Shown here: positions 2,148 to 36,238 of the stretch, one piece after another | Position numbering within the stretch: position 1 is the stretch's first letter | How the letters are laid out: the number at the start of each line of letters is the position of its first letter | Assembly (NCBI GenBank): GCA_903924955.1 | Contig: CAIYDK010000232.1 | Location: forward strand, 1-36,238 | Length of the DNA stretch: 36,238 bases | DNA from: an uncultured beta proteobacterium | Lineage (GTDB): Bacteria; Pseudomonadota; Gammaproteobacteria; Burkholderiales; Burkholderiaceae_C | Direction: 5' to 3' | Notes under the pieces: generated by a model | Seen by the model: only the letters and a program-made list of their open reading frames with translations | What the model was told of the DNA's origin: nothing | Databases searched by the model: none | Translations under genes and position numbers: made by a program

Positions 2148-3578
2148 TCACTGCTCGGCCCGCAGCCGTTCAAACGTCGCCCAAAACTGTGCGTCCTGCG
2201 TGGTCGCAAAGTTGATGCGCATCAGTGTGCTGGGTTGGCGCTCGGCATGGAACAAAGCGCCGGGAGCCAGCAGGTAGCCCACATCGAGCATGCGCTGCGA
2301 CAGCGCGTCGGTGTCCACACCGGTTTCCACCCAACCAAACAGGCCGGCCGGTGGCGAGGCAAAACTGCAGCCGTGGGCCATTGCCAGCTTGACGCTGCGC
2401 CCGCGCGCCTGATCCAGCCGCACACGGATACGCTCGGCGTGGCGGCGCAGTTGCCCCTGCTCGATACACCAGGCCAGCGCCTTTTCCAGCAGAGCGGGTG
2501 TGGTTAACGTGGCCAGCAGCTTGGTGTCGATAAAAGCCTCGACCAGGGCAGAAGGCGCCGCCAGATAGCCCACTCGCCAGCCCGGCGCCAGAATTTTCGC
2601 AAAGCCGCTGACATAAATGGTGCGCTGCAGGCCGTCCAGCGCACACAACCGCGTGGCATGGTCGGGCGCGATGTGGCTGTAGGTGTCGTCCTCCACAATG
2701 TAGAAGTTGTGGGCATTGGCCAGTTGCAACACGCGGTGGGCACTGCCCGGCGTCAGGCAGTAGCCAGTGGGGTTGTGGAACACGCTCACACTCACAAACA
2801 GCTTCGGGCTGTGCAGCTCGCAGTAGCGCGCCATCACCTCCAGATCCGGCCCGTCGGCACGCCGCGGCACGGGCAAGATGCGCATGCCCAATGCGGTCAG
2901 GCGGGCAAACTCGATGGCCCAGCCGGGCTCTTCCACCATCACATAATCACCTGCCCGAAGCAGGGTGCGACTTACAATGTCCAGCGCATGGGTGGCACCG
3001 ACGGTCGTGACAATCTGGCCCGGTGCTGCCTGCACGTTGTACGCAACCAGCTTCTGCGACAGGGCATGGCGCAACCCGCTGTCCCCAGCAGGCTCGCCGT
3101 ACTGCAGCGAGAATGCCTGTAGCGCAGGACCGCTGGTGACCTTGCGCACGGCGGCGGGCATAAAGGTCGTCTCCAGCCAGTCGGGCGGAAAAACTCCCAT
3201 GCCGGGCTGGGGCTTGTCAGACCCGCTTTGAAACATGCCGCGGATCAGCGCCGTAGCACTCACCGGAACGTGCTGCGCCTGCAGACCGCCCCGAGGGGAC
3301 GATGCTACGTTATCAATAGCGCCTTGCGCATATTTCTCGGGGGCTACAGCCATTTCACGCACATAGAACCCGCGGTTCTTGCGCGCCTCCACCAAACCCT
3401 GCGCCAGCAACTGGTCGTAGGCCGCGACCACGGTGGACGGGCTCACACCCTGCTGCTGCGCGCACTGGCGAACCGACGGCAGGCGCGCTCCCGGCGCCAA
3501 TAACCGGGTGCGGATGCGTTCGGCAAAACGGGTGCACAACTGCTCGGTGAGCGATTGCGATGCGGTCTTCATCAACAT
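2148..3578 (-). CDS. MocR/PdxR-type transcriptional regulator (GntR HTH fused to aminotransferase fold)
   Basis: A 476-residue MocR-family regulator. Residues ~1-70 form a GntR winged helix (LPSVRQCAQQQGVSPSTVV, then LVEARKNRGFYV). Residues ~110-476 are a fold-type I aminotransferase domain with HNPTGY, a VEDDTYSH segment and the PLP-lysine motif SGFAKILAPGWRVGY. Family members bind PLP and an amino compound to switch DNA binding. Two Met codons lie at 3578 and 3572; the upstream one is used here. It is divergent from the lysE-eamA-aminotransferase-phzF-dehydratase cluster, the classic arrangement for a local regulator of that operon. The interdomain linker (about residues 75-92) is encoded by a copy of the dispersed repeat read on the opposite strand. 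The family call is firm; the effector is unknown. Confidence 0.9.
   Translation of the reverse strand: MLMKTASQSLTEQLCTRFAERIRTRLLAPGARLPSVRQCAQQQGVSPSTVVAAYDQLLAQGLVEARKNRGFYVREMAVAPEKYAQGAIDNVASSPRGGLQAQHVPVSATALIRGMFQSGSDKPQPGMGVFPPDWLETTFMPAAVRKVTSGPALQAFSLQYGEPAGDSGLRHALSQKLVAYNVQAAPGQIVTTVGATHALDIVSRTLLRAGDYVMVEEPGWAIEFARLTALGMRILPVPRRADGPDLEVMARYCELHSPKLFVSVSVFHNPTGYCLTPGSAHRVLQLANAHNFYIVEDDTYSHIAPDHATRLCALDGLQRTIYVSGFAKILAPGWRVGYLAAPSALVEAFIDTKLLATLTTPALLEKALAWCIEQGQLRRHAERIRVRLDQARGRSVKLAMAHGCSFASPPAGLFGWVETGVDTDALSQRMLDVGYLLAPGALFHAERQPSTLMRINFATTQDAQFWATFERLRAEQ
3304..3355 (+). repeat. Dispersed ~50-bp repeat, copy A (inside the MocR gene)
   Basis: Consensus parts run in order on the plus strand: GCTAC, six bases, ATAGC, then CGGGGGCT and a T-rich tail. 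It lies wholly inside the minus-strand MocR gene and translates there as MAVAPEKYAQGAIDNV, the hinge between the HTH and aminotransferase domains. The reading frame is kept open. Linker length varies widely in this protein family, so the position is tolerant of insertion. Confidence 0.7.
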
Positions 3579-3676
3579 AGTGGACTGCCTTATGGGGTTT
3601 CTCAACTGTGTGTGGCCGGTGGCGCACTACCCGCGCCTGTGTTGCCCCGGCCAACCATACAGCTTAATATTCTGAC

Positions 3677-6481: not shown

Positions 6482-7444
6482 ATGCAACAACGCCGGTTCA
6501 AACAAGTTGACGTCTTTTCCGACCAGGCCTACCGGGGCAACCCCCTGGCCGTGGTGCTGGATGGATCGGGTCTGAGCACCGATGACATGCAGCGCTTTGC
6601 GCGCTGGACGAACCTGTCGGAGACCACCTTTTTGTTACCCCCCACCGCCGAAGCGGCTGCAAGTCGTGCTGACTACCAGGTGCGCATATTCACAACAGCG
6701 TATGAAATGCCGTTTGCCGGCCACCCGACGCTGGGCAGTTGCCACGCCTGGCTGGAGCAAGGCGGCGTGCCCAAAACCCCGGGCAGGGTGGTACAGGAGT
6801 GCAAGGTAGGCCTGATCAACATTCGCCAGAATGGAGCGCGCTCTTCCTTTGCCGCACCGACGCTGCGCCGCAGCGATGCAACGCCCGCGTTGGTGCAGGC
6901 GCTGGCCGATGCGCTGGGCCTGCCCCGTTCGGCGGTGCTGGCCAGCCAGCATCTGAACAACGGCCCCAGCCATTTTGGGCTGTTGCTCGACAGCCCGCAA
7001 CGGGTGCTCGATCTGGCACCCGATTTCGTCCAACTGCGCGCCGCCATGCAGGGCGCCGCCATCACCGGGGTGGGCGTGGCCAGCGTGGACGGCAGTACCG
7101 GCCCTGTCGGGCTCATCGTGCGCTCCAACCGCGAGGCCCGCGCCTTTTCCGGCAACGCAGCTCCCGTGGCTGGGGCTAACAGGCCACATGAGGAACCCGG
7201 TGTTGAGGTGCGCTTCTTCTTTGACCACGGCCACGGCGTCGGCGAAGACCCGGTCACCGGCAGCTTCAACGCCAGCCTGGCGCAGTGGCTCATCGCCCAA
7301 GGGCACGCACCCCGCGACTACACGGCGGCGCAGGGCACCTGCATCGGTGTGCAGGGCCGCGTGCACATTCATCAGGACGCTGCAGGCCAGGTCTGGGTGG
7401 GCGGCGACACCACAACCTGCATTGACGGAATGGTCACGCTATGA
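6482..7444 (+). CDS. PhzF-family isomerase/epimerase-like protein
   Basis: A 320-residue PhzF/diaminopimelate-epimerase-fold protein. The N-terminus RRFKQVDVFSDQAYRGNPLAVVLDG is the family hallmark, and WTNLSETTFLLPP carries the Glu equivalent to the PhzF catalytic acid. MPFAGHPTLGSCHAWL and the C-terminal GVGEDPVTGSFNASLAQWL are the paired conserved loops of the two lobes. Members isomerise small amino- or hydroxy-acid compounds, without PLP. A GAAAGAA purine run lies just before the ATG at 6482. Its last four bases overlap the dehydratase start. Its place between an aminotransferase and a PLP lyase suggests a step on an unusual amino acid (inference). Confidence 0.88.
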   Translation: MQQRRFKQVDVFSDQAYRGNPLAVVLDGSGLSTDDMQRFARWTNLSETTFLLPPTAEAAASRADYQVRIFTTAYEMPFAGHPTLGSCHAWLEQGGVPKTPGRVVQECKVGLINIRQNGARSSFAAPTLRRSDATPALVQALADALGLPRSAVLASQHLNNGPSHFGLLLDSPQRVLDLAPDFVQLRAAMQGAAITGVGVASVDGSTGPVGLIVRSNREARAFSGNAAPVAGANRPHEEPGVEVRFFFDHGHGVGEDPVTGSFNASLAQWLIAQGHAPRDYTAAQGTCIGVQGRVHIHQDAAGQVWVGGDTTTCIDGMVTL

Positions 7445-8400
7445 ACCTGCCTACCCTGCAAGACATCGAAGACGGCGCCCGCGTGGTGTACCGCGAATTT
7501 GCCGCCACACCGCAGTACGCCTGGGGCCTGCTCGGCCAAAAACTGGGCGCCACCTGCTGGGTCAAGCACGAGAACCACACCCCGGTGGGCGCCTTCAAGA
7601 TCCGCGGTGGCCTGACCTACTTTGACCAACTGGCGCAATCCGGCACGATGCCCAAAGCGGTGATCAGCGCCACGCGCGGCAACCACGGCCAGAGCATTGG
7701 CTGGGCGGCACGCGCCCACGGCGTGGCCTGCACCATCGTCGTGCCGCTGGGTAATTCGCTGGAGAAAAATGCCGCCATGCGCGCTCTGGGCGTGACCTTG
7801 ATCGAACATGGCACCGACTTCCAGGAAAGCCGTGAATACGCCATGTCCCTGGCGCAGCAGCGCGGCGCCCACATGGTGCCCAGCTTTCACGTCAACCTGC
7901 TGCGCGGCGTGGCCACCTACTGGTGGGAACTGTTCAAAGCCGTGCCGGATCTGGACGTGGTGTATGTGCCTATCGGCCAGGGCTCGGGCGCCTGCTCAGC
8001 CATCATTGCAAAACGGGCATTGGGTCACAAGGCACGCATCGTCGGCGTGGTCAGTGCCCACGCCACCACCTATGCCGACTCGCTCGCCGCCGGGCGCGTG
8101 GTGGAAGCACCGGTGACTACGCTGCTGGCCGACGGCATGGCCTGCCGTGTGGCCGACGCGGAGGCCCTGGCCATCATGCACGGCGAGATTGATCACATCG
8201 TGCAAGTGACGGACGCTGAAGTCGCCCAGGCCATGCGCGACATCTTTGCCTGCACCCACAATGTGGCCGAGGGCGCGGGTGCCGCAGCTTTTGCAGCCGC
8301 CATGCAGGAGCGCACCCAATTGACCGGTCAGACTGTCGGAGTGGCGCTTAGCGGGGGTAATGTCGACAGCGCAATGTTTGCCAAGGCACTACAAAATTAA
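7441..8400 (+). CDS. Threonine dehydratase-like PLP lyase (EutB-type, hydroxyamino acid dehydratase family)
   Basis: A 319-residue fold-type II PLP enzyme. Features in order: the Schiff-base lysine in HTPVGAFKIRGGL (Lys near residue 54), the substrate-binding loop SATRGNHGQS, the phosphate-binding glycine loop GQGSGACSA, and the C-terminal ALSGGNVD cofactor-contact segment. No ACT regulatory domain is present, so it resembles catabolic threonine/serine dehydratases or the EutB group rather than biosynthetic IlvA. The reaction would be loss of water and ammonia from a beta-hydroxy amino acid, giving a 2-oxo acid. It overlaps the PhzF-like gene by four bases. The last codons (ALQN) and the TAA come from a copy of the dispersed repeat. 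The exact substrate is unknown. Confidence 0.85.
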   Translation: MNLPTLQDIEDGARVVYREFAATPQYAWGLLGQKLGATCWVKHENHTPVGAFKIRGGLTYFDQLAQSGTMPKAVISATRGNHGQSIGWAARAHGVACTIVVPLGNSLEKNAAMRALGVTLIEHGTDFQESREYAMSLAQQRGAHMVPSFHVNLLRGVATYWWELFKAVPDLDVVYVPIGQGSGACSAIIAKRALGHKARIVGVVSAHATTYADSLAAGRVVEAPVTTLLADGMACRVADAEALAIMHGEIDHIVQVTDAEVAQAMRDIFACTHNVAEGAGAAAFAAAMQERTQLTGQTVGVALSGGNVDSAMFAKALQN

Positions 8401-8429
8401 TAGCTGCTTACGCAGTATTGACGGGGGCT
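8388..8429 (+). repeat. Dispersed ~50-bp repeat, copy B (end of dehydratase gene)
   Basis: ACTAC, AAAATTA, ATAGC, TGCTTACGCA and ACGGGGGCT occur in consensus order. The copy supplies the final codons and stop of the dehydratase gene and fills the 28-base gap to the convergent diguanylate cyclase stop at 8429. Its position between convergent genes would suit a role in transcript 3' ends, but no T-run hairpin is evident here. Confidence 0.75.
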
Positions 8430-16635: not shown

Positions 16636-18936
16636 ATGACTTTTACTTTCACACTCCCCGCGCTGTGCCCCAGCGCCCAGCGCCCGTTCTCACTAATTCG
16701 CCAGTTTGCTACTTTTTCCATAGCGGCATACGCAATATTGACGGGGGCTAACGCCCAAATTCTCACAAGAAATACGGCATCGGCCGGTGCTGCGTCCGCC
16801 GTCGTGCAAACCGAGCAGGTCCGCGCCGAGCTGTTCGCCCACGCGCCAGATGGCGTGGGCCCCGGCAAGACGGTGTTGCTGGGTCTGCAAATCAAACACC
16901 AACCGCACTGGCACACCTATTGGAAAAACCCGGGTGACTCTGGCCTGCCAACGACTCTCCAATGGACACTGCCCGCCAACGCAACTGCGGGCGAGATTGC
17001 CTGGCCCACGCCGCAGCGCATCACCATTGGCAACCTGGCCAACTACGGCTTTGGCGACACCCTGTTGCTGCCCGTGCCGCTGACCATTGGCAAGGGCTTC
17101 CAACCAACGCCTGGAGGTGATCTGGAAGTGCGCCTTGCAGCCTCGTGGCTGGTGTGCCGGCAGGAATGCATTCCGCAGGATGGGAATTTTGTGCTGCGCG
17201 TGCCCGCAAAAGGCTCTACCGCCTCGCATGGTGGCGACTTTGAGACCGCACGCGCCGCCGGCCCAACCGATTTATCTGGCACATCGACCGCCAAACTGGT
17301 CGGCAGCAACCTGACGATCACGGTGACCGGTCTGCCCGACAGTTGGCAGGGCCGAGCGCTGCAGCCATTCCCGGAAACACCCAACATCGCCGAACCTGTG
17401 ACCTCACCCCAAACCGGTGATTCGGTCAGCACCAGCAACGACGCAACACCCACCGCGGGCAAACAGGTTTGGAAAGGTGGCGTGTGGAGCGGCAGCTTCC
17501 CGCTGTCCGTACAGCGGGAAGGCACTGCGGACAAACTGCCCATCGTCCTCGCCTTGGGCACGCAAAGTCTTCGCACTGTCGCCACTGTCAGCGGGATCTG
17601 GCCTGCGCTGGGCAACAGCGGAGCAGTACCAGCCAGCATTGGCGCGCAAGCCGTTTCACCCAGTGCAGCCCCAGGCACCCAGTCGATCCCGGTGCAACCC
17701 AGTGGCTGGAGCAGTTGGATGCTGGCCCTTGGCGCGGCCCTGCTCGGCGGCATGATCCTGAACTTGATGCCCTGCGTACTGCCGGTGCTGGCCATCAAGG
17801 TGCTGGGCTTCTCCCGCCACAGCGAGCACAGCCCCGCCTCGCAACGCGCCCAGGGCTTGGCTTACACACTCGGTGTGGTGCTGTCGTTCGTCAGCTTGGG
17901 TGCGCTGATGCTGGCCCTGCGCGCCACCGGCGAACAACTCGGCTGGGGTTTTCAGCTGCAGTCGCCCGCCGTAGTGGCGGCATTGGCTGCGCTTTTCACG
18001 CTGCTGGGTTTGAATCTGGCGGGCCTGTTTGAGGTGGGCATGTTGCTGCCCCACCGGCTGGCTTCACTGCAGGCGCGCCATCCGGTGGTTGACGCATTTT
18101 TGTCAGGTGTGTTGGCCGTGGCAATTGCATCGCCTTGCACCGCACCCTTCATGGGCGCGTCGCTGGGGTACGCCATCAGCCTGCCAGCCGCCCAGGCACT
18201 GGGCATTTTTGCAGCGTTGGGGCTGGGGCTTGCGCTGCCGTTCCTGGCTGCTGCCTGGATTCCGGCTGTTGGACATTTGCTGCCGCGCCCCGGTGCGTGG
18301 ATGGACACGCTGCGCCGCTTCATGGCATTCCCCATGTTGGCCACGGTCGTCTGGATGGTCTGGGTGCTGGGCCATTTGAGTGGCGTCGATGGCGCTGGCG
18401 CCCTGCTGGCCCTGCTGCTGGGCATGGCGCTGATGGTGTGGTCCCTGGGTTTGACAGGCCGCAGTCGTCTGATATTCGCTACGCTTTCGATAGCTGCTCT
18501 CGCAGTACTTACGGGGGCTTTAGGCCCATTGATCACAAAAATGGACGACTTGGGTGGCGCCACTGCAACTGCCGGACCGGCGGACTCAGGCGCCACCGCA
18601 AACTGGCAAGCCTGGGCGCCGGGGCGGGTAGAAGCCGAACTTGCAGGCGGACACCCGGTGTTTGTTGATTTCACCGCCGCCTGGTGCATCACCTGCCAGT
18701 ACAACAAGAAAACCACGCTGGGCAATGCCGAGGTGCTGGCCGACATGCGCACACACCAGGTCACGCTGTTGCGTGCCGACTGGACCCGACGCGACCCGGC
18801 CATTACCGTGGCGCTGGAACAGCTTGGGCGCAGCGGCGTGCCGGTCTATGTGCTGCACCAGGCTGGCAAGCCGCCGGTGGTGTTTTCCGAAATTCTGGAT
18901 GCGCAGGAGTTGCGCGCCAGCCTGGCCCAATTGTGA
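16636..18936 (+). CDS. DsbD/ScsB-type thiol:disulfide interchange protein
   Basis: A 766-residue inner-membrane reductase that would pass electrons from cytoplasmic thioredoxin to periplasmic partners. In order: signal peptide (residues ~15-42); periplasmic N-terminal domain with WHTYWKNPGDSG and a Cys pair, VCRQEC (174 and 178); a transmembrane domain from ~355 to 632 with the redox cysteines in NLMPCVLP (380) and ASPCTAPF (501); and a C-terminal thioredoxin domain with WCITC (684 and 687). The WHTYWKNPGDSG-type N-domain resembles ScsB/DipZ-like proteins more than E. coli DsbD. Two copies of the dispersed repeat lie in the same frame and encode the signal-peptide core and the last membrane segment. 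Followed 11 bases later by a CoA-binding protein gene, then hemE. Confidence 0.9.
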   Translation: MTFTFTLPALCPSAQRPFSLIRQFATFSIAAYAILTGANAQILTRNTASAGAASAVVQTEQVRAELFAHAPDGVGPGKTVLLGLQIKHQPHWHTYWKNPGDSGLPTTLQWTLPANATAGEIAWPTPQRITIGNLANYGFGDTLLLPVPLTIGKGFQPTPGGDLEVRLAASWLVCRQECIPQDGNFVLRVPAKGSTASHGGDFETARAAGPTDLSGTSTAKLVGSNLTITVTGLPDSWQGRALQPFPETPNIAEPVTSPQTGDSVSTSNDATPTAGKQVWKGGVWSGSFPLSVQREGTADKLPIVLALGTQSLRTVATVSGIWPALGNSGAVPASIGAQAVSPSAAPGTQSIPVQPSGWSSWMLALGAALLGGMILNLMPCVLPVLAIKVLGFSRHSEHSPASQRAQGLAYTLGVVLSFVSLGALMLALRATGEQLGWGFQLQSPAVVAALAALFTLLGLNLAGLFEVGMLLPHRLASLQARHPVVDAFLSGVLAVAIASPCTAPFMGASLGYAISLPAAQALGIFAALGLGLALPFLAAAWIPAVGHLLPRPGAWMDTLRRFMAFPMLATVVWMVWVLGHLSGVDGAGALLALLLGMALMVWSLGLTGRSRLIFATLSIAALAVLTGALGPLITKMDDLGGATATAGPADSGATANWQAWAPGRVEAELAGGHPVFVDFTAAWCITCQYNKKTTLGNAEVLADMRTHQVTLLRADWTRRDPAITVALEQLGRSGVPVYVLHQAGKPPVVFSEILDAQELRASLAQL
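16708..16761 (+). repeat. Dispersed ~50-bp repeat, copy C (in dsbD-like signal peptide)
   Basis: GCTAC-N6-ATAGC-GGCATACGCA-N8-ACGGGGGCT with a following GCCC and AAATT tail. Read in frame it gives FATFSIAAYAILTGANA (with the leading Phe just upstream), the hydrophobic core and cleavage region of the signal peptide. It aligns base for base with copy D without gaps over most of its length. Confidence 0.8.
18478..18530 (+). repeat. Dispersed ~50-bp repeat, copy D (in dsbD-like last membrane segment)
   Basis: GCTAC-N6-ATAGC-TGCTCTCGCA-N8-ACGGGGGCT-TTAGGCCCATT. It begins at the first base of codon 615, as copy C begins at the first base of codon 25 of the same gene. It encodes FATLSIAALAVLTGALG, the hydrophobic segment just before the periplasmic thioredoxin domain. 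Confidence 0.8.
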
Positions 18937-23244: not shown

Positions 23245-24816
23245 TTAACGTGGACCGGCCGCGCGGGGAAAGACCACGCGTATTCGACTGCCTTGCCCGG
23301 GCGCGCTTTGCACTGTGATTTGCCCGCCCATAACGCGGGTGACGATTCCGTGAACAATGTTCATGCCCAGGCCGGTTCCCCCACGCCCCATCTTGGTAGT
23401 GAAGAAGGGGTCGAAAATGCGAGCCCGCACCGCCTCAGACATACCGATGCCGTTGTCGACCACCACCAGTTCAACCATATCGGCGTCGAGCTCGGCAATA
23501 CTGACCGAAATGCGCCCACCAGCGCCTGGCTCGAACGCGTGGATGGTTGCATTCATGACCAGGTTGGTCAATATCTGGCCATACCGTCCCGGGAACCCGT
23601 CGCAGCGCAGATCAGGAGTCAAATGCCGTTGCACTTCGCAGCCCGTTTTACGCACACCCGGTTGCAGCATATTGAGGATCTCATTGGTAACCTCGGCCAG
23701 ATCGAATACGCGGCGCTGGTCGCTGGTCTGGTCCACCGCCACTTGTTTGAAATCTGAAATCAAAAGCGCCGCACGCTGCAAATTGCTCACCGATAGCGTC
23801 AGACCCTCCCCCGCACGTTCAATAAATGAGCTTAACGTAGTCCGTCGCATGGAGCCTGAGGCCAGCTCTTTGCTGATCACCTCCAACTCGGACTGAATGG
23901 TCGATGCCACCATCAGCGCATTGCCAATCGGCGTATTGAGCTCATGGGCCACACCGGCCACAACCCGCCCCAGCGAAGCAAGTTTTTCGGTTTGAATGAT
24001 CTCCTCCTGGGCGCGCTCCAGCGTCTTCAAGGCTTGCTCCAGCGACTCGGTGCGGTCATTGACCCGCTGCTCCAGATGCTCATTGGCGTCGGTCAGTTCC
24101 TGGTTTCGGCTCTCCAGTTGGGCAATCAGGTGCAGCAGGGCCAGGCGCGTGGCCTCCAGGCTGTCGGCCAGTGCGCCCACCTCGTCGCGAAAGACCCGCC
24201 GAATGGGGATATCGAGCTGACCTTTTTCGATCCGCCCGGAGGCCTCTACCAGAGCCTCCAACGGGCGCACCAGACGCCAGTGCATGATCAGCAAAATAAT
24301 AACCAGGGCGCCCAGGGAGATTTGCAGCCCATGACGAAGGTACTGCAGACGCACCTCGTTCACTTTTGCCAGGTAACCTGCAGTGGACATTTCCATGGTC
24401 AATTTGCCCACCAAGGTCTTATTGCGCTCCACTGCACGCGTCGCCGACGCCACCAGCAGGGGGTCTTCCGCGTTGCGCGCGCGCTGGGCAAACGCAGCGC
24501 CCTTGTCGTCCCAGATAGCAATCGACACCACGTCCGGATTGATGAACGCCGCCTCCATGATGGAGTTGGCCTGCTCTGCCTCAAACTGCCACAGCGGCTC
24601 GCGCAAGGCCAGCGCAGTCAAGGCACCCAAATGGTCCAGCTCGACATGAATTTGATTGATGTGCTGCTCGCGCAAGTCGGATGCCTGGTCCAGGTACGAC
24701 AGAAACGATGCCAACAACACGCCCGCCACCACCGTCAGGGCAATCACCACACGCAGCGAGTGCATGCGCAGCCAAAGTTGGCGAGAGCGTGCAGACAGGG
24801 GGCCGAAGTTGCTCAT
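23245..24816 (-). CDS. Orphan membrane sensor histidine kinase
   Basis: A 523-residue sensor kinase. Membrane helix ~20-40, a periplasmic domain ~45-160 (with WQFEAEQANSIMEAA and SIAIWDDKG, consistent with a dCache/double-helical sensor), second membrane helix ~163-182, HAMP linker, a coiled coil (~233-280), then the phospho-acceptor in AGVAHELNTPIGNA (His291). The catalytic domain has N-box NLVMNATIHAF, G1 VVDNGIGMSE, F-box FFTTK and G2 GGTGLGMNIV. HELNTPIGN is typical of the group with HisKA of the HWE-unrelated, DctB-like type. No response regulator lies beside it, so its partner is encoded elsewhere. The ATG at 24816 places a short cytoplasmic tail before helix 1. Confidence 0.9.
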   Translation of the reverse strand: MSNFGPLSARSRQLWLRMHSLRVVIALTVVAGVLLASFLSYLDQASDLREQHINQIHVELDHLGALTALALREPLWQFEAEQANSIMEAAFINPDVVSIAIWDDKGAAFAQRARNAEDPLLVASATRAVERNKTLVGKLTMEMSTAGYLAKVNEVRLQYLRHGLQISLGALVIILLIMHWRLVRPLEALVEASGRIEKGQLDIPIRRVFRDEVGALADSLEATRLALLHLIAQLESRNQELTDANEHLEQRVNDRTESLEQALKTLERAQEEIIQTEKLASLGRVVAGVAHELNTPIGNALMVASTIQSELEVISKELASGSMRRTTLSSFIERAGEGLTLSVSNLQRAALLISDFKQVAVDQTSDQRRVFDLAEVTNEILNMLQPGVRKTGCEVQRHLTPDLRCDGFPGRYGQILTNLVMNATIHAFEPGAGGRISVSIAELDADMVELVVVDNGIGMSEAVRARIFDPFFTTKMGRGGTGLGMNIVHGIVTRVMGGQITVQSAPGQGSRIRVVFPRAAGPR

Positions 24817-24881
24817 GGGTTGGTGATCGTTTGAAACACTGTAACGCAATGGCGGTACAGTGCTCCGACCATCACGGCAAT

Positions 24882-24935
24882 GCTACCAAATACATAGCTG
24901 CATACGCATACTCCACGAGGGCCACAGGCATATTT
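24882..24935 (+). repeat. Dispersed ~50-bp repeat, copy F (kinase/AEC gap)
   Basis: GCTAC-CAAATA-CATAGC-TGCATACGCA-TACTCCACGAGGGCC with an ACAGGCATATTT tail. It fills most of the space between the sensor-kinase start (24816) and the AEC-gene stop codon (24934-24936), reaching into that stop. In this orientation it lies upstream of the kinase, so it may sit in the kinase promoter region. Confidence 0.7.
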
Positions 24936-25920
24936 AAAGCAGACCCTGCCGGGTGATCAACGCCACTGCACCGGAGAACGTGAAAAACGCAGCCGCGGTG
25001 GACACCAGAATGATGCGGGCAATACGACCATTGTCTGCACCAAAGCGTTCGGCCAGCAACGACACGTTACTTGCGCTGGGCAACGCGGCCAACAACACCA
25101 CAACCGTCAACGCAAACCGGTCCAGCGGCATACCCATTTGAATGGCCCCTGCGCCCACCAGCAAAACCAGCACCGGGTGCAAAAACAGCTTGATGGCGGC
25201 AACCGGGACCACTTCAAGCCAGTGCACGGGGTGCGCCTCGCCAGACTGCGCCATCATCTGCGAGCGCGCCAACACAGCACCAATGGTGAACAGTGCCACT
25301 GGTGACGCCGCGTCGGCCAGCAACCCAACGGTTTGAACAAGAGGGCTTGGCAATTCGAGCTGCAGGGCCGACACCACCGCACCCAGCAGGATGGACCATG
25401 GCAATGGGTTGGCAGCCACGCCCTTGAGCGCATTTTTCGCCGCTTGGCCTGCTGAAGTACCTGTGCCGCCGTCCCCATCCAACCGCGAAAGCGCAATGCA
25501 CAGCGACGTGGTGACCACCATGTCGAGCAGTACCAGCAAAATCGCTGGACCGGCAGCCCGAGGACCAAGCAGCGCGACGACCAATGGCACACCCATGAAT
25601 CCCGTATTGGGAAAGGCCCCCACCAACGCACCAAAGGCCGCGTCATTCCAGCCAATGCGACCATGGCGGGTGACGGTCACCACGAAGCCCACCATGATGA
25701 GCGCGCACAGCAGATACATGGCCACCACACTGGGGTCGAGCAGCTGGGCGATGGGCGTATTGGCGCCCAGCCGGTACAACATGCACGGCAATGAAAAAAA
25801 CAACACAAATGCGTTCAAGCCGGGAATGGCAGGCATCGGCAACATACCCCCGCGCGCAGCGACGAAACCACACAGTACGAGAGCAAAAAAGGGAAATGTG
25901 ACCGAGAGAGTTTGCAGCAC
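24934..25920 (-). CDS. AEC-family (auxin efflux carrier-like) transporter
   Basis: A 328-residue integral membrane protein with about ten hydrophobic segments and the two-bundle layout of the AEC family. Landmarks: FFALVLCGFVAARGGMLP at the N-terminus, FVLFFSLPCMLYRLGAN, GAFPNTGFMGVPLVVALLG (the conserved N-x-G-F-M-G-x-P motif) and AALPSASNVSLLAERF with the matching second-half motif. Members export organic acids or other small anions. A long open frame upstream has no transporter features; GTG at 25920 is chosen because it directly precedes the first helix. It is divergent from rep, with 78 bases between starts. Substrate unknown. Confidence 0.82.
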   Translation of the reverse strand: MLQTLSVTFPFFALVLCGFVAARGGMLPMPAIPGLNAFVLFFSLPCMLYRLGANTPIAQLLDPSVVAMYLLCALIMVGFVVTVTRHGRIGWNDAAFGALVGAFPNTGFMGVPLVVALLGPRAAGPAILLVLLDMVVTTSLCIALSRLDGDGGTGTSAGQAAKNALKGVAANPLPWSILLGAVVSALQLELPSPLVQTVGLLADAASPVALFTIGAVLARSQMMAQSGEAHPVHWLEVVPVAAIKLFLHPVLVLLVGAGAIQMGMPLDRFALTVVVLLAALPSASNVSLLAERFGADNGRIARIILVSTAAAFFTFSGAVALITRQGLL

Positions 25921-25998
25921 GCGGACATTGTCGCGGCAAATCCTGCCACGCCCCGCACACCCGGTAAGATGGCGCGCTTGTCTGTCCGTAAAGTCTGC

Positions 25999-28170
25999 AT
26001 GTCGTCGCTCTCCCCCGCCTCCGTTCCAACTTCTCCTTCGCCCCCTGTGGCCCATGGCCTGAATCTGGCTCAGCAGGAAGCCGTCAACTATTTGCACGGA
26101 CCCTGCCTGGTGCTGGCAGGTGCCGGTTCCGGCAAGACCCGGGTTATCACCCACAAAATTGCTCGGCTGATTCAATCCGGAATGGCGCCCCAGCGCATTG
26201 CTGCCATCACCTTTACCAACAAGGCTGCCGCCGAAATGCGCGAGCGCGCCAAGGGCCTGATTGGCAAGGCGGCCAAAGACGTGGTGGTGTGCACCTTTCA
26301 CGCGCTGGGCGTGCGCATGTTGCGCTTAGACGGCTCCGCCCTGGGGCTCAAGCCCCAGTTCAGCATTCTGGACACGGACGACGTGACCAGCATTCTGAAA
26401 GACGCGGGAGGCAGCACCGATGCCGCCACCGCGCGGCAGTGGCAATGGACCATCAGCGGCTGGAAAAGTGCGGGCCTCAACGCTGCTCAGGCGCTGGCCC
26501 AGGCCGAGAACGACGGTGCCCGCGTAACAGCCACCATCATGGCGCGTTACGAAGAGCGACTCACCGCCTACCAAAGCGTCGATTTTGATGACCTGATCAG
26601 CCTGCCGCTCAAGTTGCTACAAAATTATGAGCACGTCAGGCACAAGTGGCAAGGGCTGATGGGTCATGTGTTGGTGGACGAGTACCAGGACACCAACGCC
26701 ACACAATACGAGGTTTTAAAGCTGCTGGTGGGTGGCAACCCGGTCGAAAGCGCCCGATTTACCGCCGTGGGTGACGACGACCAATCCATCTACGGCTGGC
26801 GCGGCGCCACGCTGGACAACCTGAAAAAGCTGCCGGTGGATTTCCCATCACTCAAACTGGTCAAGCTGGAGCAAAACTACCGCTCCACCAGCGCCATTCT
26901 TCGTGCGGCCAACAATGTCATTGGCCCTAACCCCAAACTGTTCCCCAAAAACCTGTGGAGCGATTTGGGCGAAGGCGAACCGGTCCGCGTAGTGGACGCC
27001 GACAACGAAGAGCACGAAGCCGAGCGCGCGGTAGCCCGCATCCAGAGCCTGCGCGCTGAGGGCACGCTGGCGCAGGCGGGCATGCAGTTCAAAGAGTACA
27101 AAGACTTTGCCGTGCTGTACCGAGCTAACCACCAGGCAAAGCCGTTCGAGAAGGCGCTGCGCAAGGCCAATATTCCGTACAAGGTGTCGGGTGGCCAAAG
27201 CTTCTTTGACCGAGCCGAGATTCGAGACCTTTGCGCTTGGTTTCGGCTGTGGGCCAACAACGATGACGACCCGGCTTTCCTCAGAGCCGTCACCACGCCC
27301 AAGCGGGGCATTGGCCATCAGACACTGGGCACGCTGGGCGTATTTGCCAGCCAGTACAAGCAAAGTTTGTTCGAGTCCCTGTTTTCCAGTTCCCTGAGTT
27401 CGGTCCTTGCGGCCAAGGCAGTTGGCAGTCTGCACGAGTTTGGCCGCTACGTGAATGATCTTGAATACCGGGCCCGCCAGACGGAGGGTGCCGAAGCCGC
27501 CAGGGCCTTCATGACTGACTGGCTAAGGGACATTGACTACGAAAAACACCTGCTTGATGGTGAAGACAGCGACAAAGTGGCCGCAGCCAAGTGGTCTAAC
27601 GTGTTGGAGTTTTGCGACTGGATGGCCCTGCGCTGCGGTGGCACCCTGGACGACGCGGCCGGAACATCGGTTCGCGAAGTCAAAAACTTGCTGGAAGTTG
27701 CGCAAACGATTGCCCTGCTATCCACCATCAGCGAGCGCGAGAAGGATCAGAACGTGGTCACCCTGTCGACCCTGCACGCATCCAAAGGACTGGAATGGCC
27801 GCATGTACTGCTGGTGGGGGTAACAGAGGGCATGCTGCCCTTCAAACTGGGTGATGGTGCCGAGTCTCAAGGTGGCTCAGAGAAAGCGCATGAGTCGGTC
27901 ATTGAAGATATGGCACAACGCCTGCAGGAAGAGCGAAGGCTGATGTATGTGGGCATCACCCGCGCACAGCGCAGCCTGGCCGTGAGCTGGACCCGGCGCC
28001 GCAAGAAGGGCCGGGAAATGGTGGCAGTGCTACCCAGCCGCTTTATTGCAGAAATGGGTCTGGACAAGGCAACGGTCAGAGAGGACCCTCGGGAAAAGCT
28101 GAAGGCACTAAGGGCAGAGTTTGCGCTAAAGGCACTGGCAAGCGCGACGGCCGCTGCTCAAAACCGGTAA
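25999..28170 (+). CDS. rep: ATP-dependent DNA helicase Rep (UvrD/Rep superfamily 1)
   Basis: A 723-residue SF1A helicase, closer to Rep than UvrD/PcrA in motif spelling. Motifs in order: Q motif LNLAQQEAVNYL, I AGAGSGKTRVI, Ia FTNKAAAEM, II VLVDEYQDTN, III VGDDDQSIYGWRGA, IV QNYRSTSAIL, V TLHASKGLEWPHVLLVG and VI ERRLMYVGITRAQ. It unwinds DNA 3'-5' and clears proteins ahead of the fork. The N-terminus has a Pro/Ser-rich ~18-residue leader before the core, a bit longer than E. coli Rep. The ATG at 25999 was picked over in-frame upstream Met codons because the latter run into the divergent AEC promoter. It ends 11 bases from the convergent hypothetical gene. Confidence 0.93.
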   Translation: MSSLSPASVPTSPSPPVAHGLNLAQQEAVNYLHGPCLVLAGAGSGKTRVITHKIARLIQSGMAPQRIAAITFTNKAAAEMRERAKGLIGKAAKDVVVCTFHALGVRMLRLDGSALGLKPQFSILDTDDVTSILKDAGGSTDAATARQWQWTISGWKSAGLNAAQALAQAENDGARVTATIMARYEERLTAYQSVDFDDLISLPLKLLQNYEHVRHKWQGLMGHVLVDEYQDTNATQYEVLKLLVGGNPVESARFTAVGDDDQSIYGWRGATLDNLKKLPVDFPSLKLVKLEQNYRSTSAILRAANNVIGPNPKLFPKNLWSDLGEGEPVRVVDADNEEHEAERAVARIQSLRAEGTLAQAGMQFKEYKDFAVLYRANHQAKPFEKALRKANIPYKVSGGQSFFDRAEIRDLCAWFRLWANNDDDPAFLRAVTTPKRGIGHQTLGTLGVFASQYKQSLFESLFSSSLSSVLAAKAVGSLHEFGRYVNDLEYRARQTEGAEAARAFMTDWLRDIDYEKHLLDGEDSDKVAAAKWSNVLEFCDWMALRCGGTLDDAAGTSVREVKNLLEVAQTIALLSTISEREKDQNVVTLSTLHASKGLEWPHVLLVGVTEGMLPFKLGDGAESQGGSEKAHESVIEDMAQRLQEERRLMYVGITRAQRSLAVSWTRRRKKGREMVAVLPSRFIAEMGLDKATVREDPREKLKALRAEFALKALASATAAAQNR

Positions 28171-35857: not shown

Positions 35858-35895
35858 AAAAAAGGCCTCAAGCCCCCGTTAAATGGGCTTGAGGC
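35858..35895 (-). terminator. Intrinsic terminator of rpoC
   Basis: A perfect 11-bp stem (GCCTCAAGCCC at 35865-35875 with GGGCTTGAGGC at 35885-35895) and a nine-base loop is followed on the minus strand by a run of six T residues (35863-35858). It is 25 bases after the rpoC stop and 46 bases before the LemA-like start. It coincides with the 3' half of repeat copy H. Confidence 0.88.
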
Positions 35896-35912
35896 GCTAT
35901 GTTTAATATAGC
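35864..35912 (-). repeat. Dispersed ~50-bp repeat, copy H (rpoC 3' end)
   Basis: Read on the minus strand: GCTATATTAAACATAGCGCC, then TCAAGCCCATTTAACGGGGGCTTGAGGCC. The order GCTA, ATAGC, ACGGGGGCT, AGGCC and T-rich tail is the repeat consensus, but base changes have made its 3' half a perfect stem. It overlaps the terminator. Confidence 0.6.
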
Positions 35913-35920
35913 AAATATGG

Positions 35921-36238
<318 letters not shown>

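Follow-up and report, generated by a model that had tools for sequence, protein, structure and literature searches.

A dispersed DNA motif present twice in a dsbD-like gene is held at the nucleotide level in a betaproteobacterial genus

Results

We analyzed a 36,238-nucleotide contig (CAIYDK010000232.1, GenBank assembly GCA_903924955.1; here called the window) from an uncultured betaproteobacterium, the source genome, in which an open reading frame (ORF) on the forward strand at 16636-18936 encodes a DsbD-like thiol:disulfide interchange protein of 766 amino acids with matches to DsbD_N, DsbD_TM, and Thioredoxin_7, each above the cut-off. This gene carries two copies, C and D, of a dispersed DNA motif, GCTAYNNNNNNNATAGCNSCNNNNGCNNNNNNNACGRGGGC, both matching it without a mismatch (Table 1). 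As a reading made earlier from the sequence only had stated, one DNA repeat is present twice in the same frame, and the sequence and the ORF bear out a start at codon position 1 for both C (codon 25) and D (codon 615). The open frame of the motif in DsbD is A-T/I-x-x-I-A-A-x-A-x-x-T-G-A-x-G, and the encoded peptides are those given by the sequence-only reading, apart from its strings starting one codon (F) too early. The final hydropathy peak N-terminal of the thioredoxin domain (residues 612 to 630, mean 2.16) falls on copy D. The segment at copy C resembles a signal peptide by eye and contains no 19-residue window with a hydropathy above 1.5. At copy C, the conservation of the motif family extends ∼10 nt beyond the core.

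A search of the whole source genome (4.55 Mb in 627 contigs) for the motif returned 266 copies at two mismatches or fewer, divided 133/133 by strand, and none for the reversed pattern used as a control. The motif is ∼50 bp long, with conservation from about position −4 to +53 (∼55 nt) in 30 aligned zero-mismatch copies, an alignment in which the number of fixed positions is inflated by the pattern itself having selected them. Its fixed blocks, GCTAY, RTAGCTGC..CGCA, and ACGRGSGCT..GGC, are separated by A/T-leaning spacers. We examined the placement of 108 copies, of which 96 have no more than two mismatches and are among the 266, calling gene interiors from codon usage and ORFs. Only 34 of the 96 lie inside genes, the other 62 being between genes or at gene ends, in a genome whose window is ∼85% coding; the motif is thus under-represented in coding DNA. 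Among the 34 gene-interior copies, 15 are in sense phase 0, 15 are antisense, and 4 are in other frames, and one of the sense frames is closed by the TAG of the motif itself. ATA and GCT, both usual in the motif, make up 7.8% of the Ile codons and 11.8% of the Ala codons, respectively, in the genes of the window.

Hydrophobic peptides of the kind seen in DsbD are not the rule. A 17-residue peptide with a mean hydropathy above 1.2 is encoded by 4 of the 34 gene-interior copies, including D and excluding C (0.91), and we therefore rejected a general preference for membrane segments. The 20 host ORFs scanned against Pfam are mostly soluble enzymes by family name, with four or so membrane proteins, and their families include AMP-binding/acetyl-CoA synthetase, kdotransferase, IPP transferase (MiaA), UvrA, FGAR-AT (PurL), LpxB, IspD, and ComEC. 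Two copies in one gene are not unique to dsbD either, given that a chromate transporter by Pfam (L112:1249-2622) and an ORF in L023 each contain a pair, with one weak copy per pair. The comEC-like gene (L068:1851-3929) also has two copies, one antisense and one sense.

The sequence-only reading further held that the repeat had been inserted into dsbD and had supplied the two hydrophobic segments, and it had proposed aligning DsbD relatives to see whether these segments are missing or different elsewhere. We compared DsbD from 30 same-genus genomes, the 30 best of 55 genomes with a match among 61 searched. Neither claim is supported by this comparison, as the motif-free same-genus orthologues have the same hydrophobic segments in a colinear arrangement and encode them with GC-rich codons. 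A gap in the columns of site D, of four residues, is found in only two distant sequences of the 30, and a hydrophobic segment occupies the D position in eight genomes from other families as well, with the bigger length differences falling in the flanking loops. The test is weaker at site C, where the signal segment varies in length and an insertion is less strictly excluded.

The same comparison was made at three other loci. In PolA and RarA, identified by the Pfam families DNA_pol_A and MgsA_C, the motif-free orthologues within the genus align without gaps across the motif, and those of other families differ by no more than two residues across the codons of the motif; PolA can lack as many as six further residues immediately upstream. 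The remaining locus is the motif copy on a terminator-like hairpin that follows the gene with its end at 35921, which by our reading would be the 3′ end of rpoC; its 105-amino-acid end piece gave no Pfam match, but in relatives the matches fall within open frames as long as 1466 amino acids. There, the distance from the stop codon to the hairpin is 22 to 27 nt with the first block of the motif (8 of 9 measured) and 16 to 32 nt without it (19 of 21 measured). No block-sized length difference is seen at DsbD site D, PolA, RarA, or downstream of rpoC, and insertion of a mobile element was rejected on the grounds of these colinear homologues and the unchanged spacing. The motif did not create the DsbD helices; the two hydrophobic stretches gave it places that tolerate its open frame.

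At the four coding sites (DsbD C and D, PolA, and RarA), the motif state follows the number of copies in the genome as a whole. Carriers are same-genus genomes in which 37 or more motif copies were counted at two mismatches or fewer. We scored each site over 27 positions, for which the background best-of-19 score has a mean of 12.7 and a 99th percentile of 16. DsbD was scored in 15 motif-rich and 15 motif-poor same-genus genomes, with two carriers (G025 and G033) giving no DsbD match. Site C scored 23 to 26 in the rich genomes and 11 to 15 in the poor ones except for one relic at 22, and site D scored 19 to 27 versus 10 to 15. PolA scored 23 to 27 in 8 of 10 rich genomes and 12 to 17 in 13 poor genomes, and RarA scored 19 to 24 in 12 rich and 13 to 19 in 12 poor genomes. 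Spearman correlations between site score and genome copy number, calculated without correction for phylogeny, are 0.83 for DsbD site C and 0.81 for site D (n = 30 each), 0.63 for PolA (n = 23), and 0.78 for RarA (n = 24). In 28 genomes of the wider family, the best matching of 235 with a match and 27 of them from other genera, the C and D scores likewise follow copy number, with correlations of 0.77 and 0.71.

In the relic genome, G008 (locus L037), not one copy falls within two mismatches, and a decayed motif remains at DsbD site C.

Synonymous positions are frozen where the motif is present. In the motif codons of DsbD, the same synonymous codon is shared in 0.786 of same-residue pairs compared to 0.502 in the rest of the gene, a value reached in none of 20,000 resamples, and in PolA the values are 0.943 and 0.600, reached in 1 of 20,000. 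RarA shows 0.573 over a background of 0.454. Non-carriers fall below the background in codon sharing at all three genes. The motif is therefore held at the nucleotide level where it is present, and this result, together with the dependence of the site state on genome copy number, sets the sites apart from ordinary protein conservation, the outcome that was to refute the sequence-only reading.

Copy number is sharply divided within the genus, with 17 of 37 genomes having 37 to 316 copies and 20 having 0 to 6, and 24 genomes from other families have 0 or 1 copy each. With a looser pattern, the motif is present in 92 of 250 family genomes, with at least 10 copies in 55 of them (a hand count) spanning 34 genera. 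Exact matches in named records comprise 67 stretches, largely from Rhodoferax and uncultured Betaproteobacteria, with some from Polaromonas and Curvibacter; from these records we infer that the source genome is Rhodoferax-like, and the family name used below was arrived at in the same way. Four viral contigs also contain an exact match, a count for which no expectation was computed and which at most hints at scarcity of the motif in newly acquired DNA. In a tree built with FastTree from three proteins, their motif regions masked, rooted on two outgroups and with some weak nodes (0.84 and lower), the carriers are paraphyletic and motif-poor genomes are nested at three or more points. Judging from this tree, an ancestral motif that was lost several times is the probable history.

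Groups of genomes differ in the version of the motif that they carry, of GGGGC, GGCGC, or TCCCGC type, and the coding copies follow the version of their genome. The core ends in GGGC in 91 and in GCGC in none of the 96 source-genome copies, for which the form is ACGRGGGC, whereas ACGRGCGC copies abound in genomes G007 and G034; in PolA, the GCGC dialect amounts to a synonymous change from GGG to GGC. TCCCGC occurs in 8 of the 20 listed copies of genome G009 (CTCCCGC in 7 of 20) versus 0 of 96 in the source genome, and the G009 copies in PolA and at DsbD site C both read GCT CCC GCA CTA TCC ACG, with residues changed in both proteins. The recognition sequence thus appears to evolve genome-wide, by drive, selection, or gene conversion.

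In the G009 polA gene (L190), the motif copy departs from its relatives in a block of bases, spacer bases included, that matches the G009 dialect and alters the QD residues of other carriers.

Discussion

We infer that a trans-acting, sequence-specific process operating on double-stranded DNA keeps the motif sites. Joint loss at several loci points to a factor acting in trans, and the even split of gene-interior copies between orientations speaks for double-stranded DNA as the target and not for a role in RNA. An RNA hairpin had been considered and was rejected, with four copies giving z values of −1.67 to +0.90 against shuffled sequences and with gene-interior copies lying both sense and antisense. 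The candidate that we favor is a DNA recognition motif held in trans, most likely through an uptake-sequence-like drive, and we put its likelihood just short of even. Sequence-biased DNA uptake with recombination, a molecular drive of the kind proposed for uptake signal sequences (USS) and DNA uptake sequences (DUS), would maintain the sites, which would survive wherever the encoded residues are acceptable to the protein. The open frame that the motif has in DsbD would suit a membrane helix as well as the core of a signal peptide, and both places would hence be usable. Gene conversion between the copies, which the sequence-only reading had offered as an alternative origin of their similarity, is a possible route of maintenance.

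Several observations weigh against this uptake-like drive. Known uptake systems need ComEC, and the ComEC family is near-universal, found in 55 of 61 genomes without tracking the motif, so that its distribution does not account for the motif; in one carrier, G026 (142 copies; 99% complete), no match to the ComEC family was obtained at all, whether through loss or an assembly gap. USS and DUS are several times shorter and more abundant than the motif, whose spacing is consistent with random placement. The G009 PolA copy has changed as a block relative to G007 (CAGGAT to CTATCC plus GGC to CCC), which gene conversion would fit too. The carriers appear paraphyletic, many motif-free states within the genus look like losses, and we observed no individual gain through point mutation. 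Exceptions to the copy number rule also exist: carriers G003 and G022 lack the PolA motif (score 14), a RarA score of 19 occurs in rich and poor genomes alike, genome G267 has 197 copies by the looser pattern but a DsbD site C score of 14, and G260 reaches only 17 at site D. Downstream of rpoC, the first block is present in fewer than half of the rich genomes (7 of 15) and in 2 of the 15 poor ones; G006 and G014 retain it with 2 and 1 copies genome-wide. Finally, synonymous freezing in RarA is weak (914 of 20,000 resamples as high), and the lack of phylogenetic correction applies to all of the correlations above.

A serious if unlikely alternative is that the motif is a chromosome-organization or DNA-processing site, recognized by a DNA-binding protein and kept by selection instead of uptake drive, with the dialects following changes in that protein. 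A motif of this length, built of fixed blocks and A/T-leaning spacers, would suit such a site, as would copies on both strands all over a complete chromosome, the dependence of coding sites on genome copy number, and the failure of ComEC to track the motif. On the G007 chromosome, however, the 82 copies are divided 44/38 by strand, number 4 to 15 per eighth, and fit random placement; with the origin position assumed, we saw among them neither polar strand bias, including any strand switch between chromosome halves, nor regional clustering, which argues against polar sites. Chi and KOPS (FtsK orienting polar sequences) and matS show polar strand bias or regional clustering, unlike the motif in G007. 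Hundreds of redundant sites would also be hard for selection to hold singly, yet the DsbD sites persist across genera.

It is quite improbable that the motif is the relic of an ancient mobile repeat, similar to repetitive extragenic palindromic (REP) sequences or miniature inverted-repeat transposable elements (MITE), that spread in an ancestor of the family and was then homogenized by gene conversion. The dispersed, high-copy character of the repeat, its inverted pair GCTA/TAGC, the fact that the PolA copy of G009 changed as a block, and the presence in the genus of Y1_Tnp-family genes resembling REP-associated tyrosine transposases (RAYT) would all be in line with such an origin. Against it, the four loci compared show no block-sized insertion, the PolA spacer codons for QD are also found in motif-free homologues, and Y1_Tnp is present in 22 of the 23 same-genus genomes searched, in carriers and non-carriers alike, and its distribution thus does not account for the motif.

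Two in-frame insertions of an element that thereby supplied both hydrophobic segments, as the sequence-only reading had it, would account for an in-frame DNA repeat at both positions but are very improbable given the colinear segments of motif-free same-genus homologues and the hydrophobic segment at the D position in other families. Ordinary conservation of a hydrophobic peptide, although the two peptides are hydrophobic and orthologues have them as well, is scarcely credible in view of synonymous sites frozen solely where the motif is present, of copies in antisense orientation, in intergenic positions, and at a terminator, and of the dependence of the site state on genome copy number.

By analogy, and with moderate confidence, we suggest that the motif may work like an uptake sequence, but we do not class it as one. 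USS are described as evolving by point mutation, varying by lineage, and being scarce in coding sequence and in recently acquired DNA (PMC7811141); lineage-specific versions are also part of the DUS/USS literature (PMC3630211). The motif is similar in not being inserted, in having dialects within a family, in its many scattered copies in both orientations, and in its scarcity in coding DNA. It differs in length (∼50 bp compared to a core of 9 to 10 bp), in number (37 to 316 copies in carriers, at two mismatches or fewer, compared to ∼1,500 to 2,200), and in bacterial family, USS belonging to Pasteurellaceae and DUS to Neisseriaceae.

Other repeats share fewer traits. Rickettsia palindromic elements are likewise in-frame repeats within unrelated protein genes but are ∼150 bp long and integrated into genes (PMC10969869), while the motif shows no block-sized lengthening relative to motif-free homologues. 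REP/RAYT systems resemble it as dispersed, high-copy short repeats, with the inverted pair and a Y1_Tnp gene in the genus, and differ in that the motif has no signs of insertion and Y1_Tnp presence does not track its copy number. Copies of the beta-proteobacterial repeat element BRE occur in Betaproteobacteria including Rhodoferax and Polaromonas, with some in coding sequence; the description of BRE (75 to 91 bp, an average of 69% GC, some tandem arrays, and at most 29 copies per genome; PMC3110155) differs from that of the motif, with its ∼55-nt conserved span, A/T-leaning spacers, and dispersed copies. A literature search confined to the PMC open subset found no description of the motif.

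Although apparently not a gene and not inserted, the motif fixes codons and changes residues of core proteins across genera, which implies a trans-acting machine in a large environmental family. It offers a direct test of self-specific DNA uptake beyond Pasteurellaceae and Neisseriaceae or else represents a new chromosome-wide binding site. It is conceivable, though on balance doubtful, that Comamonadaceae (in the older naming) would be a third family with self-specific uptake sequences, with a ∼50-bp motif far longer than USS or DUS, a drive overriding amino acid choice in PolA, RarA, and DsbD, and dialects that partition the genus. As a caution, peptides common to unrelated proteins of these bacteria can be DNA driven.

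Additional motif copies

The window contains six copies of the motif in all (Table 1). The copy within the MocR-type regulator gene lies at about residue 90, between the GntR (20 to 82) and Aminotran_1_2 (167 to 473) domains. An Rfam scan of the window at the gathering threshold returned two tRNAs only.

Table 1. Positions of the motif copies in the 36,238-nucleotide window
Feature	Coordinates	Strand	Description
Motif copy	3304..3344	+	1 mismatch; antisense, in frame (frame -0), inside MocR-type regulator gene (2148-3605, -)
Motif copy	8388..8428	+	1 mismatch; overlaps stop codon (8398-8400) of PALP-family enzyme gene (7441-8400)
Motif copy C	16708..16748	+	41-nt core, 0 mismatches; begins at codon 25; N-terminal hydrophobic (signal-peptide-like) segment
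Motif copy D	18478..18518	+	41-nt core, 0 mismatches; begins at codon 615; last hydrophobic helix before thioredoxin domain
Motif copy	24882..24922	+	0 mismatches; 84-bp gap between ORFs 23245-24849 (-) and 24934-26301 (-)
Motif copy	35872..35912	-	0 mismatches; on terminator-like hairpin downstream of gene ending at 35921

Elsewhere in the source genome, two copies (G000:C157:8438 and G000:C298:4528) are identical over all 41 listed bases, spacers included, and are perhaps duplicated assembly fragments. At 35872-35921 of the window, the right block of the motif forms part of a hairpin arm, and the hairpin is kept in relatives without the motif.

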